Positions 15,675 through 55,902 of a stretch of 64,000 nucleotides of DNA are shown here, piece by piece; position 1 is the first letter of the stretch, and each line of letters begins with the position of its first letter. The translations under genes and the position numbers were made by a program. This DNA comes from an uncultured Alphaproteobacteria bacterium (lineage in GTDB: Bacteria; Pseudomonadota; Alphaproteobacteria; UBA6615), in the NCBI GenBank assembly GCA_943787745.1, contig CALSNJ010000001.1, positions 248,001 to 312,000 of the forward strand, read 5' to 3'. The notes under the pieces were generated by a model. It had not been told where the DNA came from, searched no databases, and saw only the letters and a list, made by a program, of their open reading frames with translations.

Positions 15675-16274
15675 CTATTCGGGCGTGCCCGTCCAGCGCT
15701 TCGACAGGCTGTGATCGATGGCATAGAGGTCCAGCACCCGGCCGATCGTGTGGTCCACCATGTCTTCGATCGATTCAGGTTTTGGGTAGAAGGCCGGCAT
15801 GGGTGGCATCACGATGGCACCGATCTCAGATGCCTGAGTCAGGGTGCGCAGATGGCCGGTGTGAAGAGGGCTTTCACGGACCATCAACACCAGTCGTCGG
15901 CGTTCCTTAAGGGTGACATCAGCTGCACGTGTAAGGAGGGTCTGCGTGGCGCCGTAGGCGATCTCTGCAGCGGATTTCACGGCACAGGGCGCCACCACCA
16001 TGCCCAGTGTCAGCATGGAACCAGAAGATATGGCGGCTCCCACATCGCTGGGGTTGTAGACATGGTCGGCCAGCGCATAGAGGTCGTCGCGGGACAGATT
16101 GGTTTCGTAGTTGAGTGTCATCAAACCCGGGCGGCTGACCACAAGATGGGTTTCGACATCCGTGTCTTGCAACACTTCGAGCAAGCGAATTCCATATGTG
16201 ATTCCGGTGGCCCCGGAGATGCCGACGATCAGGCGTTTGGGTTCGCCGGGTGGGTAGTATGGGTTTTCATTCAT
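15675..16274 (-). CDS. ubiX: UbiX-family flavin prenyltransferase
   Basis: A 199-residue flavoprotein: N-terminal VGISGATGITYGIRLLEVL FMN site, SSGSMLTLGMVVAPC mid-section, then RRLVLMVRESPLHTGHLRTLTQASEIGAIVMPPMPAFY with the conserved active-site Glu/His/Tyr region. UbiX makes the prenylated FMN cofactor of UbiD-type decarboxylases. No ubiD lies in the window. The mid-section (NLSRDDLYALADHVYNPSDVGAAI) matches the family's D-I-x-A pattern closely enough for a full-length assignment. Confidence 0.88.
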   Translation of the reverse strand: MNENPYYPPGEPKRLIVGISGATGITYGIRLLEVLQDTDVETHLVVSRPGLMTLNYETNLSRDDLYALADHVYNPSDVGAAISSGSMLTLGMVVAPCAVKSAAEIAYGATQTLLTRAADVTLKERRRLVLMVRESPLHTGHLRTLTQASEIGAIVMPPMPAFYPKPESIEDMVDHTIGRVLDLYAIDHSLSKRWTGTPE

Positions 16275-16302: not shown

Positions 16303-16521
16303 TCAGTCGCCACGCGCCAAAGCGCGCACTTCGTTGTCTTCGGGGAACCGATGGGTTTCGAGCTTTGAATAAAGCACCGCACCCCCACGAGTGATCTCGA
16401 ACGAACCGGTTCGGCCCGGAGCGATCTCAACGGTTTCACCTTTTTCTACAAGCAGGTCTCTCGCACGGAGCGCACGCGGCTCGTAGTTTCAAATTTTGCA
16501 GAATTCGATGTGTATGGTCAT
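16303..16521 (-). CDS. SelW/Rdx-family selenoprotein with in-frame UGA (Sec11)
   Basis: Reading through TGA at 16489-16491 gives a 72-residue protein of the SelW/SelT/Rdx thioredoxin-like family: IEFCKI-U-NYEPRALRARDLL, then VEIAPGRTGSFEITRGGAVLYSK and RFPED near the C-terminus. Sec falls at the second position of the family's CxxC (Cys8-x-x-Sec11), as in SelW. A hairpin follows the UGA. The last stop is a second TGA after ARGD. The window also holds tRNA-Sec and SelD. Family role: small selenium-dependent thiol oxidoreductase. The start ATG at 16521 has no strong ribosome site. Read conventionally it would give only ten residues, so it would be missed. Confidence 0.85.
16465..16484 (-). promoter_or_regulatory. 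Candidate SECIS hairpin of the SelW-like gene
   Basis: Starting 4 bases past the UGA, ACGAGC (16484-16479) pairs with GCTCCGT (16471-16465) through six pairs with one bulged C and a 7-nt loop containing GU. Position and size agree with bacterial SECIS elements that recruit SelB, although these are loosely conserved. Confidence 0.5.
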
Positions 16522-16610
16522 GTTCGGGAATACCAATTGTCGGTGTGCGTCCATCTCATATGGTTGCAGATTGATCTAAAGCAACGCGCAAGAAGCGCGT
16601 CTTGGCTAAC

Positions 16611-16949
16611 ATGACACGCATGAAGAACATTGGACATATTCTCTTTGGCTCTTTGATAATCGCGGGAGTTTTGTTTCCTGAGCTGGCTCTGGCGCAGGAT
16701 GACAGGCAGCGCCTGCAGGGCCTCGATCTCGCCCGTGACCTGTGTTCGGGTTGCCATGTGGTGACAGAAAACCAGCGTGGTACGGCCATCGATGGGGCGC
16801 CGTCTTTCCCAATGCTCGGCCGCTCAGGGCGTTCGAATGATCATCTGCGCGTCTGGTTAAGTGAACCGCATCCGGTCATGCCACAGATGCCGCTTTCCGA
16901 AGAACAGATTGCGGCTGTGATTGCGTATATCCGGTCATTCGCGGATTAG
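16611..16949 (+). CDS. Small periplasmic c-type cytochrome
   Basis: A roughly 112-residue protein with signal peptide (IGHILFGSLIIAGVLFPELALA), one CSGCH haem-binding motif near residue 49 and a Met-containing PVMPQMPLS segment for the sixth ligand, followed by the family's C-terminal helix (EEQIAAVIAYIRSF). Class I cytochrome c, likely an electron shuttle. Start at ATG 16611 or 16620; neither has a clear ribosome site. Its stop overlaps the convergent LOG gene. Confidence 0.88.
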   Translation: MTRMKNIGHILFGSLIIAGVLFPELALAQDDRQRLQGLDLARDLCSGCHVVTENQRGTAIDGAPSFPMLGRSGRSNDHLRVWLSEPHPVMPQMPLSEEQIAAVIAYIRSFAD

Positions 16950-19533: not shown

Positions 19534-19767
19534 CGCAGTTCTCCCCTGTTTGGATCCACTCTAGACCGATTGAATGTGTCTGACGACACCGTCGCTGATG
19601 GCCGTGCTGCAGCTTTGGGTCCAACATCTCGCCGTCTTTCTATCGTGAGTTGAAGAACGGGCGAAGTTTTAAGGGTCTGTTAATCTCAAAGAAGCACTCT
19701 GGCCTGTGTAATGTCTCGCGCCATGACACCGGGTTTTTGGCAGCTAGTCTGCGAATGGAGTTTTGCT

Positions 19768-20046
19768 ATGTCCCCAGCACAAACCGAGCCCATTGTAGAG
19801 AGTATGAACGAGAGCTCCGCACCGGGTGATCCATTTGCGCCGCTTGCGGCGGCGTTTTTGCATATTGAAGACTCTGCGATTGTATTCTCGGCCGAAGGTG
19901 AGCTGGTTGTCTGGAATCCGGGCGCAGAAAGGCTTTATGGTTACACCTTCGAGGAAGCCCGCCGGAAAGACATCTCGTTTCTTGCGGCCCCCGAAGAATC
20001 CGGCGCCACGATCAGTTTGATTGCTCGTATTGTCCTTCCCCCCTAA
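19768..20046 (+). pseudogene. PAS-domain sensor protein, cut off by the IS element
   Basis: The frame from ATG 19768 (GGAG 7 bases upstream) encodes the start of a PAS domain (FLHIEDSAIVFSAEGELVVWNPGAERLYGYTFEEARRKDISFL), normally followed by more sensory and signalling domains. Native sequence ends at 20030, where the IS begins; the frame then stops inside the IS at 20046. The missing 3' part is not found on the other side of the element, so the gene is a truncated remnant of about 88 residues. Confidence 0.8.
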
Positions 20047-20084
20047 AACTGGGCCACTATTTTTAGAGACTGAAGGGGGATGTG

Positions 20085-20372
20085 ATGGCTCGGAAACGTT
20101 ATTCGGATGAGGACATACTCAAGCTGCTGCGTGAGATTGAGGTGAAGCTGTCGACTGGCAGTGACGTGCCGTCGGCCTGTCGTGGCGTGGGTATTAGTGA
20201 TGCCACTTACTACAACTGGCGCAAGCGGTTTGGCGGGATGGGGAAGTCTCAACTGTCGGAACTTCGCGCTCTTGAGAAAGAGAATGTGCGGCTGAAGAAG
20301 ATCGTCGCGGAACTCGAACTCGATAAGCTGATCCTCAAGGAAAGCTTGACCCACCTAAAGCCCAGGGCCTGA
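20085..20372 (+). CDS. IS3-family transposase OrfA (HTH protein)
   Basis: A 95-residue protein with an N-terminal helix-turn-helix (SACRGVGISDATYYNWRKRF) and a C-terminal leucine-zipper-like coiled coil (LEKENVRLKKIVAELELDKLILKESL). It binds the IS ends. ATG at 20085 follows GAAGGGGGA. The stop lies 23 bases before the orfB GTG, but the orfB frame stays open upstream across the end of orfA, so a -1 frameshift can make the OrfAB transposase. Confidence 0.93.
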   Translation: MARKRYSDEDILKLLREIEVKLSTGSDVPSACRGVGISDATYYNWRKRFGGMGKSQLSELRALEKENVRLKKIVAELELDKLILKESLTHLKPRA

Positions 20373-20395
20373 CGACAGAGCAGGTCCGTCAGGCC

Positions 20396-21214
20396 GTGAT
20401 CCATACGCGTCAGAAGCTCGCGACGTCAGAGAGACGGACATGCCGGGTGATCGGACTGGCGCGCAGTTCTCTGCAATACCGACCGGCCCGGCGAGATGAT
20501 GATGCTCTGCGATTGGCCCTGATCCGGCTGGCCAAGCAATACGGGCGCTACGGCTATCGCAAGATAGCCGAACTGCTGCGCATCGAAGGTTGGAAGGTGA
20601 ACCACAAGAAGGTTGAGCGGATCTGGCGCGAAGAAGGCCTTCAACTGCCGCAACGGCACAAGAAGCGCCGACGGCTCTACCACAAGGATGCTTCGATCAT
20701 ACGGCTGCGGCCAACCCATCCGAACCACGTCTGGAGCATCGACTTTGTACACGACAAGCTCGACAGCGGTCGGAGTTACAAGATGCTGACAGTTCTCGAC
20801 GAGTACACCCGTCAGGCTCTAGCGGTCGCGGTTCGCACCAGGATGGGAGCTGAGGATGTCCTTGAGGCGCTCTACCCGCTACTCATGCGCCACGGCACTC
20901 CAGAATATATCCGTTCCGACAATGGCCCCGAGTTCGTCGCGGAAGCGATGCAGGACTGGTTGGCAAGGGTCGGGATCAAGCCTATCCGGATCTATCCCGG
21001 GTCACCCTGGGAGAATGGATACAACGAACGATTTAACGGAACTCTGCGCCGCGAGGTGCTCAACGCCGAATGGTTCACCACAACAAAGCAGGCTCAGGTC
21101 GTCATCAACCAGTGGCTCAGACAGTACAATCACATCCGCCCACATCAGGCCCTCAACATGCGCCCTCCTGTTCCAGAAACTCTAATCAGGAATGGCCCAG
21201 AACTTGGGGGCTAG
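20396..21214 (+). CDS. IS3-family transposase OrfB (DDE integrase core)
   Basis: A 272-residue rve-type integrase: an HTH_21 segment (YGRYGYRKIAELL) then the DDE core, with Asp in VWSIDFVHDKL, Asp in YIRSDNGPEF and Glu in SPWENGYNERFNG, the last two with the family's 35-residue spacing. It is complete, so the element should be able to move. It is usually made as a fusion to OrfA through -1 frameshifting rather than from the GTG at 20396. Confidence 0.93.
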   Translation: MIHTRQKLATSERRTCRVIGLARSSLQYRPARRDDDALRLALIRLAKQYGRYGYRKIAELLRIEGWKVNHKKVERIWREEGLQLPQRHKKRRRLYHKDASIIRLRPTHPNHVWSIDFVHDKLDSGRSYKMLTVLDEYTRQALAVAVRTRMGAEDVLEALYPLLMRHGTPEYIRSDNGPEFVAEAMQDWLARVGIKPIRIYPGSPWENGYNERFNGTLRREVLNAEWFTTTKQAQVVINQWLRQYNHIRPHQALNMRPPVPETLIRNGPELGG

Positions 21215-52263: not shown

Positions 52264-53497
52264 ATGGTTCACGTCCGTGAAATGCCTGAACATTTGCGCG
52301 ATGCGCTGATCAATCAGGAGTTACCGGAATACGGTGACACGCCCTGGGTGACACCAAAACCGCTGGATGAGTGCCGGGTGGCATTGATTTCCACGGCCGG
52401 CCTGCATCGGCGCGAAGACCCGCCGTTTACGCCGGGTGCGGGTGATTATCGGATCATCCCTGATGACATACGACATGGATGAACTCACTATGAGCCATGT
52501 GTCGACCAATTTTGATCGCAGCGGTTTCTATCAGGACGTGAACACATCCTTTCCGATCGACCGGCTGCGCGAGTTCGCCGAAGAAGGCGTGATCGGCTCG
52601 GTTGCCGGCCGTCATTTTTCCTTCATGGGGGCCACACCGCCGACGGTGATGGAGCCGATCGCCCGTGATCTTGCAAAGGTTCTCAAGGCAGACAATGTCG
52701 ACGCTGTTGCGCTCGTCCCTGTCTGACCCCAATGCACGCGCGCCGTGGGCGGGCTTGCACACTATCTCGAAGAAGAAGGCATTCCGACAACGCAGATCGC
52801 GTTGATCCGCAAACATGCCGAAGAAATCAAACCACCGCGCACACTCGCGGTGCCCTTTGAACTGGGCCGCCCATTGGGTGCGCCCAACGAGCCGGATTTT
52901 CAGCGTCGCGTTCTGCGTGAGTGTCTTGAGCTTCTGGCGCGCGAATCCGGTCCTGTTCTTGAGGACTTCCCCGATGACGCCCCGGGTGCCGAACCTGATC
53001 CGGAGGGCTGGGCCTGCCCGGTTAATTTTGCGGCACCTGTCGAAGACCTCAGTGATGAAGACTTGATCCGTCAGGCTCTCGAACAGGAAATCGCGCTGCT
53101 ACGTCCCTGGTATGAGGAATCCAAGCAGAATCGCAAAGGCCGGACGAATTTCGGTATCTCGGGTATGACACCCGAGGAAATCGCGGCGTATATCGCCAAG
53201 GTCACCGTTGCGCGCGAGGATTCGGGATCCCCAATTGCGGACAAGCCGCCGCATCTTGCCTTCAAGCATATGGCTGATGACATGCGTTACTACTATATGG
53301 AGGCTGCTATCGCGCGCCCCGATTCGCGGGTTAGTGATTTGGAGATAGGCAACTGGCTGTGGGGGGAGACCACGCTGGGCAAGGTTCTGGTGGTGATCCG
53401 GGACTGGGCGATGGAGACCGAGCATCCGGGCTTCAAGGCGCTTGCGCCTACGGCCATGGTGCCAACCCATCAGCGGCATCGCACAATCCACGGCTAG
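52264..53497 (+). CDS. GrdB-like reductase-family selenoprotein, UGA at Sec154, with a frameshift
   Basis: The sequence matches the glycine/sarcosine/betaine reductase selenoprotein B family: RVALISTAGLHRREDPPF, then MSHVSTNFDRSGFYQDVN and FPIDRLREFAEEGVIGSVAGRHFSFMG, then VALVPV-U-PQCTRAVGGLAHYLEEEGIPT. TGA at 52724-52726 stands where the family has Sec or Cys, giving Sec154-x-x-Cys157; the frame continues to 53497 without a stop. Separately, one extra base near 52459-52474 breaks the frame between PDD and YDMDEL, so the true state is uncertain. No GrdA, GrdC or thioredoxin partner is nearby, so it is probably not a standard glycine reductase. Converges on selD. Confidence 0.8.
52727..52749 (+). 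promoter_or_regulatory. Candidate SECIS hairpin of the GrdB-like gene
   Basis: Directly after the UGA, CACG (52735-52738) pairs with CGTG (52744-52747) around a 5-base loop, and CC (52729-52730) pairs with GG (52748-52749) across a 4-base bulge. Position suits a bacterial SECIS element, but the stem is short. Confidence 0.4.
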
Positions 53498-55710
53498 TTG
53501 CGGTAGCTGATCTGGCATTCGGAACTTTTGCGTTTTTGGACCTTTCCGATGATTGCGGCAGCTGGCGCGGCACCCGCGTGCAGGTCAGCAAGGCATACTT
53601 CTGCGCGATGTTCGGGAACGCTGAACAGCAGTCCCCCAGACGTCTGCGGGTCGAACAGCAACGGATGGACCGGATGATTTGTTGGTGCGAAAGCATGACC
53701 GGCTGAGCCTTCATTGCCGGGACGTAGCGTGCTTTCAACACCTTGACGGGACAGTTCGATAGCGCCAGCGAGAACGGGTATTGCGTCCAGATCAATTTCG
53801 GCAGAGGTCGAGGACGCCTCAAGCATTTCCAGAAGATGACCGGCAAGCCCGAACCCGGTGACATCGGTTCCGGCCGTTGCGCTGTGGTCACGCATGACTT
53901 GCACACATGGTTTTAGCGAGGTTTGCATGGATGTCAGTGCAGCATCGATCCAGTCACCACGTGCTTCGGCGCGCATATCTGCAGCAAATAGAACGCCGGT
54001 TCCAATCGGTTTGGTCAGGATCAAGGCGTCGCCGGGACGGAGACCGCCTTTTCGGATGATGGTCTCAGGTGCTGCATAGCCGTTGATGGTCAGGCCGAAG
54101 GCCATTTCTGCACCTTCGCCGGTGTGACCTCCGGCAAGCACAGCGCCGGCTTCGGCAAGGGTTTCGGTCGCCCCGGCGAGCAGCTGATAAAGATCGCCAC
54201 CCATTTTGTCGTCATCACCATGGGGCAACATGACGGCCGCCAGAGCTGTGTGGGGGTCGGCACCCATAGCAAAGATGTCGCCCAGACAATGATTCGCCGC
54301 GATCCGTCCAAACAGGAAGGGGTCGTCGATAAAGGCCCGAAACTGATCCACTGTCTGGATCAGGGATTTTCCCGCCGGAGGCGTCATGACGGCAGCGTCG
54401 TCGGGCGCGTCGAGGCCCTGATCGAGACCTTCAATTGTCTGGATTGGAAGCCGGCTTAATGCACGGCGCAGGACGGGAGCGGGGACCTTGGCGCCACAGC
54501 CACCGCAGCGCATGTCCTCCAGCACGTCGTTTGTTGCGCCTTTGCCCGCATTCATGTCGGGCAGCTCCTGATACTTCTTCATCCACCGCCGGTCGATCCA
54601 GTCCTTCCAGCGCCAGACCCAATGGCCTTCAAAAGCAAAAGGCCCACGCGCGGCAATCGCATAGTGTTCGCCGGTGGTGATCAGCGCGAGGGTTTGGCCC
54701 TGCGGTTTGAATATTCTCAGCGCTTGCCCCGTCGCAACGCGTCGCAGGTTTTCTGCCAGATAGGGCCCCTGCCGAACTGCGTAGACGCCCGCCTTTGGCA
54801 GGTTGTGACTGTCCATTGACGCAGCATCTCCGACCGCAAACACCTGCGGGTGTGACGGGGAGCGCAAATGGTCGTCCACCCGGACAAACCCGTGATCGTC
54901 GCGTGCGAGGCTTGTTTCGGCCAGCCATTTGGGTGGACCAGCGGAGGTCACCAATATTGTCTGGTCGCTGGGTACAGACTTGTCGCCCGCGAGTTCGACG
55001 CGCGTCGCAGTAATGCTTGTGACAGCTGCGCCGAGGCGAAGGTCGATGTTGCGTGTCTTCAGGGCGCGCACCATCTTTGCCCGTGCCGCCGCGTTGTAAC
55101 GGGGCAACAGCACGTTGTTGGCCTCAATCAGCGTGAAGCTGAATGACCCAGGCTCGCGGCCCAGTTCTTTGGCCGCTTCCCGAAGACGGAAGCTCAGTCC
55201 GAGAATCAGCTCAACGCCACCAGCCCCGCCCCCAACGACGGTCAGATGAAACGGTCCCTCATGCGTGCGAATTCGCTCGGTGAGCCCGTGATAGGCCTCG
55301 AGAAACCGATCGATGGGTTTGACGGGAAGGGCGTATTCCGCGCCTTCAATATCTAGCGTGGAGGGCGTGGACCCGGTGTCGATCGACAGCAGGTCGAAGG
55401 GAATGGCCGGTCGGCCCGCGAGCGCCAGAAAGTTATTGTCGAGATCGATGCCGGTTGCCGGTGCATGGATCAGCCGTGCTTTGGCAAACGCTGCCAGCGG
55501 TCGCAGATCAATATGGGCTTCGGCCTGAGAATAGTGACCGGCGATGTATCCGGGGATCATGCCGGAATAGGGGGTCAGCATGTCGCGCGCGATCAGGGTC
55601 AGGCGTACGCCTGGTTCGGGCTTCATGCCAAAACGCTTGAGCACATCAACATGACTGTGGCCGCCGCCAACCAGAACGATGTCGCGGCGAATGGGAACCG
55701 TTGGCGTCAT
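53494..55710 (-). CDS. selD: NADH dehydrogenase-like FAD domain fused to selenide, water dikinase (SelD)
   Basis: A 738-residue fusion. Residues 1-370 form a pyridine-nucleotide-disulfide/NDH-2-like FAD domain (DIVLVGGGHSHVDVL, LTVVGGGAGGVEL, VFAVGDAA). From about 395 follows SelD, which makes selenophosphate from selenide and ATP for Sec insertion and tRNA selenation: MRCGGCGAK with Cys402, Cys405 and Lys408, TVDQFRAFIDDPFLFGRIAANHCLGDIFAMGA, AGGHTGEGAEM and TDVTGFGLAGHLLEM. This fusion is known in many proteobacteria. ATG 55710 is chosen since the longer frame runs into the tRNA gene. Confidence 0.95.
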   Translation of the reverse strand: MTPTVPIRRDIVLVGGGHSHVDVLKRFGMKPEPGVRLTLIARDMLTPYSGMIPGYIAGHYSQAEAHIDLRPLAAFAKARLIHAPATGIDLDNNFLALAGRPAIPFDLLSIDTGSTPSTLDIEGAEYALPVKPIDRFLEAYHGLTERIRTHEGPFHLTVVGGGAGGVELILGLSFRLREAAKELGREPGSFSFTLIEANNVLLPRYNAAARAKMVRALKTRNIDLRLGAAVTSITATRVELAGDKSVPSDQTILVTSAGPPKWLAETSLARDDHGFVRVDDHLRSPSHPQVFAVGDAASMDSHNLPKAGVYAVRQGPYLAENLRRVATGQALRIFKPQGQTLALITTGEHYAIAARGPFAFEGHWVWRWKDWIDRRWMKKYQELPDMNAGKGATNDVLEDMRCGGCGAKVPAPVLRRALSRLPIQTIEGLDQGLDAPDDAAVMTPPAGKSLIQTVDQFRAFIDDPFLFGRIAANHCLGDIFAMGADPHTALAAVMLPHGDDDKMGGDLYQLLAGATETLAEAGAVLAGGHTGEGAEMAFGLTINGYAAPETIIRKGGLRPGDALILTKPIGTGVLFAADMRAEARGDWIDAALTSMQTSLKPCVQVMRDHSATAGTDVTGFGLAGHLLEMLEASSTSAEIDLDAIPVLAGAIELSRQGVESTLRPGNEGSAGHAFAPTNHPVHPLLFDPQTSGGLLFSVPEHRAEVCLADLHAGAAPAAAIIGKVQKRKSSECQISYRN

Positions 55711-55806
55711 GAATCTTTCAGTCTGACTGGTGCCGGTTGCTGGCGTTGGTTGTACGTCACCATAAACACCCAAGGGGCTGAACCCTTCCCGCAATAACGC
55801 GGAAAT

Positions 55807-55902
55807 TGGCGGAAGAGGGTGGGAGTCGAACCCACCAGGCACGTCTAACGCCCCTCACCGGTTTTGAAGACCGGGCGCCCCACCGGGGAACGGTCCTCCT
55901 CC
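55807..55902 (-). tRNA. selC: tRNA-Sec (anticodon UCA)
   Basis: A 96-base tRNA with all Sec hallmarks: an 8-bp acceptor (GGAGGAGG with CCTCTTCC), anticodon stem CCGGT/ACCGG around loop CTTCAAA (anticodon TCA), a long variable arm, a T-arm with GGGTTCGACTCCC and encoded GCCA end. It lies 97 bases upstream of selD on the same strand, and the two may share a transcript. It decodes the three in-frame UGA codons in this window. Confidence 0.96.

Follow-up and report, generated by a model that had tools for sequence, protein, structure and literature searches.

A conserved SelW/Rdx-family gene interrupted by an in-frame UGA, probably a selenoprotein gene, in an uncultured alphaproteobacterium

The window analyzed here, a 64,000-nucleotide stretch from an uncultured alphaproteobacterium (C1:248001-312000), carries on its minus strand a short reading frame of the SelW/Rdx family that is interrupted by a TGA, and we consider it very probable that this frame is a real, expressed-in-principle selenoprotein gene encoding a 72-residue redox protein. 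The frame, its family, the conserved UGA, the Sec machinery, the constraint on the codons that follow the UGA, and the fold model are all computed results. The gene and its internal codon are located as follows:
16303-16521, minus strand: selW-like gene of the Rdx family, coordinates including the terminating TGA; the product has 72 residues, with Sec predicted at residue 11.
16489-16491, minus strand: in-frame TGA, putatively read as selenocysteine within Cys8-Lys-Ile-Sec11 of the minus-strand translation.

Translated on the minus strand from 16521 to 16303, the frame reads MTIHIEFCKI-UGA-NYEPRALRARDLLVEKGETVEIAPGRTGSFEITRGGAVLYSKLETHRFPEDNEVRALARGD and then meets a second TGA (16305-16303), which is the terminator of the gene. 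The Met start lies at 16521, and the internal UGA is codon 11 (bases 16491-16489), directly 3' of the C-K-I codons. The read-through product begins MTIHIEFCKI-U-NYEPRALR, which sets the spacing Cys8-x-x-Sec11, and 61 residues follow the in-frame TGA, for 72 in total counting the UGA itself; no other stop falls inside the frame. An additional in-frame ATG is present upstream at 16554, although 16521 is the likelier start because the relatives start at the Met of MTIHIEFC. A plus-strand reading of 16303-16521 gave unrelated residues and a TGA of its own and was rejected. A first-pass annotation made from the sequence had placed the TGA after CKI in a 72-residue frame with Cys8-x-x-Sec11, and its coordinates are right; it gave no strand, which is the minus strand.

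Under table 11 the frame is visible, among ORFs of at least 20 aa, only as two pieces of 21 aa (16554..16489) and 24 aa (16377..16303), and the table 11 ORF list holds no minus-strand ORF of at least 60 aa covering 16303-16521. The earlier claim that ordinary gene calling would miss this gene thus gains mechanical support from the splitting of the frame, together with a published precedent: the available excerpt of PMC4607533 describes SelW genes of Epsilonproteobacteria that were missed by annotation. The annotation is corrected: what had seemed an empty gap very probably contains a conserved gene, split at a UGA, for a selenoprotein.

The profile search that the first-pass annotation had proposed for the read-through protein returned a match well over the curated cut-off. 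Pfam Rdx (PF10262) aligns with residues 2-68 at 55.6 bits (cut-off 22.6, E 6.3e-15), and TIGR02174 (CXXU_selWTH) scores 51.7 bits against a cut-off of 34.2. The SelTWH_Campy equivalog NF041051 scores 68.6 bits and does not reach its cut-off of 88, so the protein is not that equivalog. Searched across the whole genome, Rdx finds a single locus with one TGA inside it. At E <= 0.01, a profile built from 36 relatives retrieves eight distinct PDB sequences, every one of the Rdx/SelW type (E 3.1e-14 to 2.7e-7); they include MIEN1 (2ljk) at E 3.1e-14 and mouse SelW (2npb) at E 5e-8. The AlphaFold2 model, computed from 36 sequences, has a mean pLDDT of 93.6 and a pTM of 0.81, with a strand-helix-strand-strand-strand-helix topology that places Cys8 and Sec11 between the strand at 3-7 and the helix at 14-26. 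This site between the first strand and the first helix is what we take to be the place of the thioredoxin motif. The best 23 PDB matches found by Foldseek are all Rdx/SelW-type structures, and the TM-score by query against solved Rdx/SelW structures ranges from 0.63 to 0.85.

A scan of 84,980 species, with one genome per species, yielded 63 related loci, and the same codon is TGA in 63/63. Cys forms were not disfavored, since the peptide patterns used in the scan omit residue 11 and the query has a Cys in that place. The loci come from independent assemblies, with identity down to 36%; the residues flanking the UGA are nearly invariant, and Cys8 and residue 11 are both invariant in 36/36 aligned sequences. 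At the family level, the gene is present in 14 of 24 genomes, each time with one TGA as its sole stop; the order-level searches cover the identical 24 genomes. With a profile E of 6.3e-15 and the TGA kept in all 63 loci, the frame is beyond chance. By this search, the clade is one in which SelW seems never to take the Cys form.

These results bear directly on the reading in which the TGA is a genuine stop, produced by sequencing error, nonsense mutation, or pseudogene formation, with the Rdx likeness as a decaying relic. Table 11 does interrupt the frame, and the folding energy described below is unremarkable, as that reading would expect. The same-codon TGA across independent assemblies, the near-invariant residues around it, the lack of any further internal stop, and the full Sec machinery of the genome all run against it, and conservation refutes it in practice, leaving it very improbable. 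Absence of the TGA on resequencing had been named at the outset as the observation that would overturn the gene; the TGA in all 63 relatives, and as the sole in-frame stop in 14/14 gene-bearing family genomes, excludes sequencing error in practice.

The genome that bears the gene also holds SelA, SelB, SelD, and tRNA-Sec, and this, along with the Rdx match above the cut-off and the TGA kept in every related locus, supports the initial proposal of a hidden SelW/Rdx-like selenoprotein. Two of the components lie inside the window:
55811-55902, minus strand: tRNA-Sec (selC), Rfam RF01852 at 71.2 bits, gathering score 47.
53494-55842, minus strand: SelD fusion, with a pyridine nucleotide-disulfide oxidoreductase domain ahead of SelD, TIGR00476 (selD) at 292.1 bits (cut-off 125) and TIGR03169 at 459.3 bits (cut-off 310).

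The other two, SelB (C1:313946-315817, 458.4 bits, cut-off 242.25) and SelA (C1:315865-316977, 533.2 bits), are found 2-5 kb past the right end of the window. The SelD-fusion ORF as listed starts upstream of the oxidoreductase domain, and the tRNA-Sec overlaps its 5' end.

A second candidate for a hidden selenoprotein lies beside selD, at 52490-53497 on the plus strand, where read-through of a TGA at 52724-52726 gives VPV-U-PQC (UxxC). Its read-through product scores 28.2 bits against GRDB PF07355 (cut-off 22) and 82.7 bits against PrdB TIGR04483, below the cut-off of 300, and behind the TGA folds a hairpin with a GCC/GGC stem and a GUG loop (-15.8 kcal/mol). According to the available text of PMC2398784, PrdB-like UxxC proteins are among the selenoprotein families already known from marine sources. 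By eye, the N-terminal part of this PrdB/GrdB-like gene (MVHVREMPEHLRDAL...) likely lies at ~52264-52490 on the plus strand, apparently in another frame than the TGA part, and there appears to be a frameshift, real or a sequencing error, near 52470.

Co-occurrence with the Sec pathway was followed in a class sample of 241 genomes with completeness of at least 85%. Rdx is present in 26 of them, with one TGA in 17 and TGA-free in 9. Full-length SelA, defined by E below 1e-140, is present in 34/241 genomes, and 17 more have weak matches only (E above ~1e-12). It occurs in 17/17 genomes with a TGA-bearing Rdx versus 0/9 with a TGA-free Rdx (Fisher p 3.2e-7, kinship among genomes ignored), a contrast that probably does not represent independent Sec/Cys swaps, since the TGA-free proteins (G216, G037, G168, G204, G055, G256, G170, G207, and G043) score 95-114 bits against PF10262 versus 43-66 bits for the TGA-bearing ones and are probably a separate subfamily. 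Within the family, 20 genomes have a strong SelA match; these include all 14 that bear the gene, and the gene is absent from the remaining 4 (p 0.02), two weak matches (G009 at 1.6e-8 and G013 at 3.1e-12) being counted, by inference, as other PLP enzymes. RF01852 matched in 24/24 family genomes and was not counted as a Sec trait; SelA was used instead, because ordinary tRNAs match this model below the gathering score and some even over it.

The restriction of TGA-bearing genes to genomes with full SelA (17/17 in the class sample) also weighs against a second alternative, that the UGA is decoded as another residue, by Trp insertion or near-cognate read-through, and not as Sec. Any residue at the UGA would restore the full frame, and nothing positive speaks for one other than Sec. 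In this family, the redox-active Cys or Sec stands at this site (CxxU, as given in the text available from PMC2398784), and TGA also terminates the same gene. We regard decoding as another residue as scarcely credible and retain selenocysteine as the predicted residue 11.

The bases behind the UGA were compared in a set of 63 distinct-source sequences, made up of the window, 61 of the 63 loci, and one family locus. From 65 sequences, L062 and L064, whose Sec codon is likewise TGA, were excluded as being without the RALR stretch, and 12 of the 13 family loci (L074-L086) were excluded because they duplicate loci that the set contained already; earlier sets of 66 and 75 sequences still held duplicates, and their counts are unused. 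The feature proposed here is:
16458-16472, minus strand: apical hairpin of a putative bacterial SECIS, positions 20-34 counted from the T of TGA, loop CGUGC.

The heptamer CTCCGTG at positions 22-28 from the UGA is identical in 63/63 sequences, and CTCCGTGCGA is kept in 62/63. Read as codons, this is CTC in 63/63 and CGT in 63/63, followed by an invariant G. Elsewhere in the same genes, CTC accounts for 96/318 Leu codons, CGT for 19/244 Arg codons, and GCG for 121/301 Ala codons, and at an Arg two places upstream, a residue equally conserved, all six codons are used (a count from the sets that still held duplicates). Codons fixed at this site against free codon use elsewhere mean that something besides the protein holds these bases, and this codon-level invariance strongly favors a putative RNA element behind the UGA.

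We consider it likely, judging from the sequence, that the hairpin 3' of the UGA is the SECIS. Its stem, C-U-C / G-A-G, encloses the loop CGUGC, and the C20-G34 pair is present in 63/63 sequences; positions 21/33 show joint variation, being C-G in 36, T-A in 7, T-G in 2, G-T in 1, G-C in 1, and non-standard in 16 (n=63), and position 32 is A in 5/63. The bSECIS model, in the part of PMC13188914 available, has a 3-9 nt loop with a G within its first two positions, in most cases with G or U next, a spacing of 16-37 nt, an upper stem of 4-16 bp, and an MFE <= -7.5. Against these published values the spacing (21 nt), the loop (second base G, then U), and the MFE (-14.9) all fit, and the hairpin of the window has 3 contiguous bp followed by a G/A mismatch where the model has an upper stem of 4-16 bp. 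Compared with synonymous shuffles, the sequences 3' of the UGA do not fold with lower energy (mean z -0.13, n=63; window -0.11). In the window, the modeled pairing probability of the hairpin is 0.13, and an alternative hairpin is marginally more stable (-14.9 vs -14.7 kcal/mol). The RNAalifold consensus of the 63 sequences gives a 4-bp helix at other positions with an energy near zero and no support for the hairpin.

A doubtful variant of the SECIS assignment is that the selW SECIS here would be read by its exact sequence, the fixed decamer CUCCGUGCGA, and not by a stable hairpin. This decamer lies 18 nt behind the UGA and is kept in 62/63 sequences, with neighboring synonymous positions varying freely, and the stem is broken across a whole clade that includes the window. 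If true, it would define a sequence-recognized class of bacterial SECIS, and it would be the reason why Leu-Arg-Ala-Arg is fixed in the protein. Because the codons behind the UGA are so strictly fixed, they provide a simple test of the share that the loop sequence has in SECIS recognition.

From these elements we infer Sec insertion, the hairpin as SECIS, and a redox cycle with its substrate and reductant, in the following course. The ribosome would start at the ATG at 16521 and reach the UGA at codon 11, where the hairpin within the next ~35 nt would hold SelB with Sec-tRNA-Sec in place, so that Sec is inserted; translation would then continue to the second UGA, which would terminate the protein. 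The predicted product is a 72-residue thioredoxin-like protein in which the first strand ends in Cys8-x-x-Sec11 and the first helix follows directly; it most likely acts as a thiol/selenol oxidoreductase, small and cytosolic. In its cycle, the Sec selenolate would attack an oxidized substrate (a peroxide, a disulfide, or an oxidized thiol), Cys8 would resolve the intermediate to form a Cys8-Sec11 selenenylsulfide, and glutathione or thioredoxin would reduce it.

The gene neighborhood was considered as a possible guide to function. The next gene downstream of the selW-like gene is:
15675-16274, minus strand: ubiX (flavin prenyltransferase), NF004685 at 253.9 bits and TIGR00421 at 230.6 bits, both over cut-off.

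The selW-like gene lies 28 nt upstream of ubiX on the same strand, and on its other side a divergent small ORF (16602-16949, plus strand) carries a CSGCH heme-type motif. The gap had been described at first as lying between ubiX and a cytochrome gene; ubiX stands, and the supposed cytochrome ORF has the motif but at E <= 0.001 matches no NCBIfam model. In 9/9 of the closest loci (L002-L010) selW is followed by ubiX, an arrangement not seen in the other 54 of the 63. Clustering of neighboring ORFs in those of the 53 loci L011-L064 that have ORFs (791 ORFs, many spurious) gave clade-specific clusters only, with at most 6 loci per cluster. There is thus no conserved operon partner beyond close relatives, and the context names no substrate. 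Further along the window, two adjoining plus-strand ORFs at 20082-21214 resemble by eye OrfA/OrfB of an insertion sequence of the IS3 type; they come immediately after a short ORF (19711-20046) resembling a cut PAS-domain gene.

The lack of a conserved operon partner would also suit a real Sec protein that serves as a selenium or metal binder, a partner-bound regulator, or a redox sensor, instead of turning over a small oxidant, as would the fact that the excerpts of the cited literature available give no substrates of bacterial SelW. Such a role, which we rate as possible though rather unlikely, is opposed by the position of the CxxU, which occupies the thioredoxin-motif site of a thioredoxin-like fold, and by the invariance of Cys8 and residue 11 in every aligned sequence. 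The catalytic oxidoreductase is the role we prefer for the predicted protein.

Compared with solved structures, the protein shares its fold with the bacterial Cys-Rdx proteins 2fa8, 3dex, 2p0g, 2obk, 2oka, and 2ojl, with human MIEN1 (2ljk), and with mouse SelW (2npb); unlike the solved bacterial Cys-Rdx chains of 103-108 residues, it has 72 residues with a predicted Sec. Its likeness to SelTWH of Campylobacterota (NF041051) and to CXXU_selWTH (TIGR02174) spans nearly the whole length. Bacterial SelW-like proteins with Sec were described long ago and form an abundant family, and neither a protein of this kind nor the overlooking of its gene is new, as the available parts of the literature document. 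The Sargasso Sea study counted 48 SelW-like selenoproteins and 7 Cys homologs and showed a bacterial SECIS for one (PMC1088965); in the GOS survey, SelW-like proteins were the largest prokaryotic family, with 427 CxxU selenoproteins and 56 Cys homologs (PMC2398784). A 2006 study noted that SelW-like Cys homologs are very few in Sec-using organisms, so that Sec may be ancestral (PMC1794560). As far as these excerpted texts go, the present protein resembles the SelW-like sequences of the Sargasso and GOS sets, which come from marine bacteria (PMC1088965, PMC2398784), in its CxxU motif, its Rdx/SelW family, a bacterial SECIS (putative here) after the UGA, and the great excess of Sec over Cys forms, with no difference in kind found. 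Unlike those metagenomic sequences, it resides in a near-complete genome with its own Sec machinery. Opening no new biology of itself, it supplies a genome-resolved SelW case in which the Sec machinery lies ~40-50 kb away.
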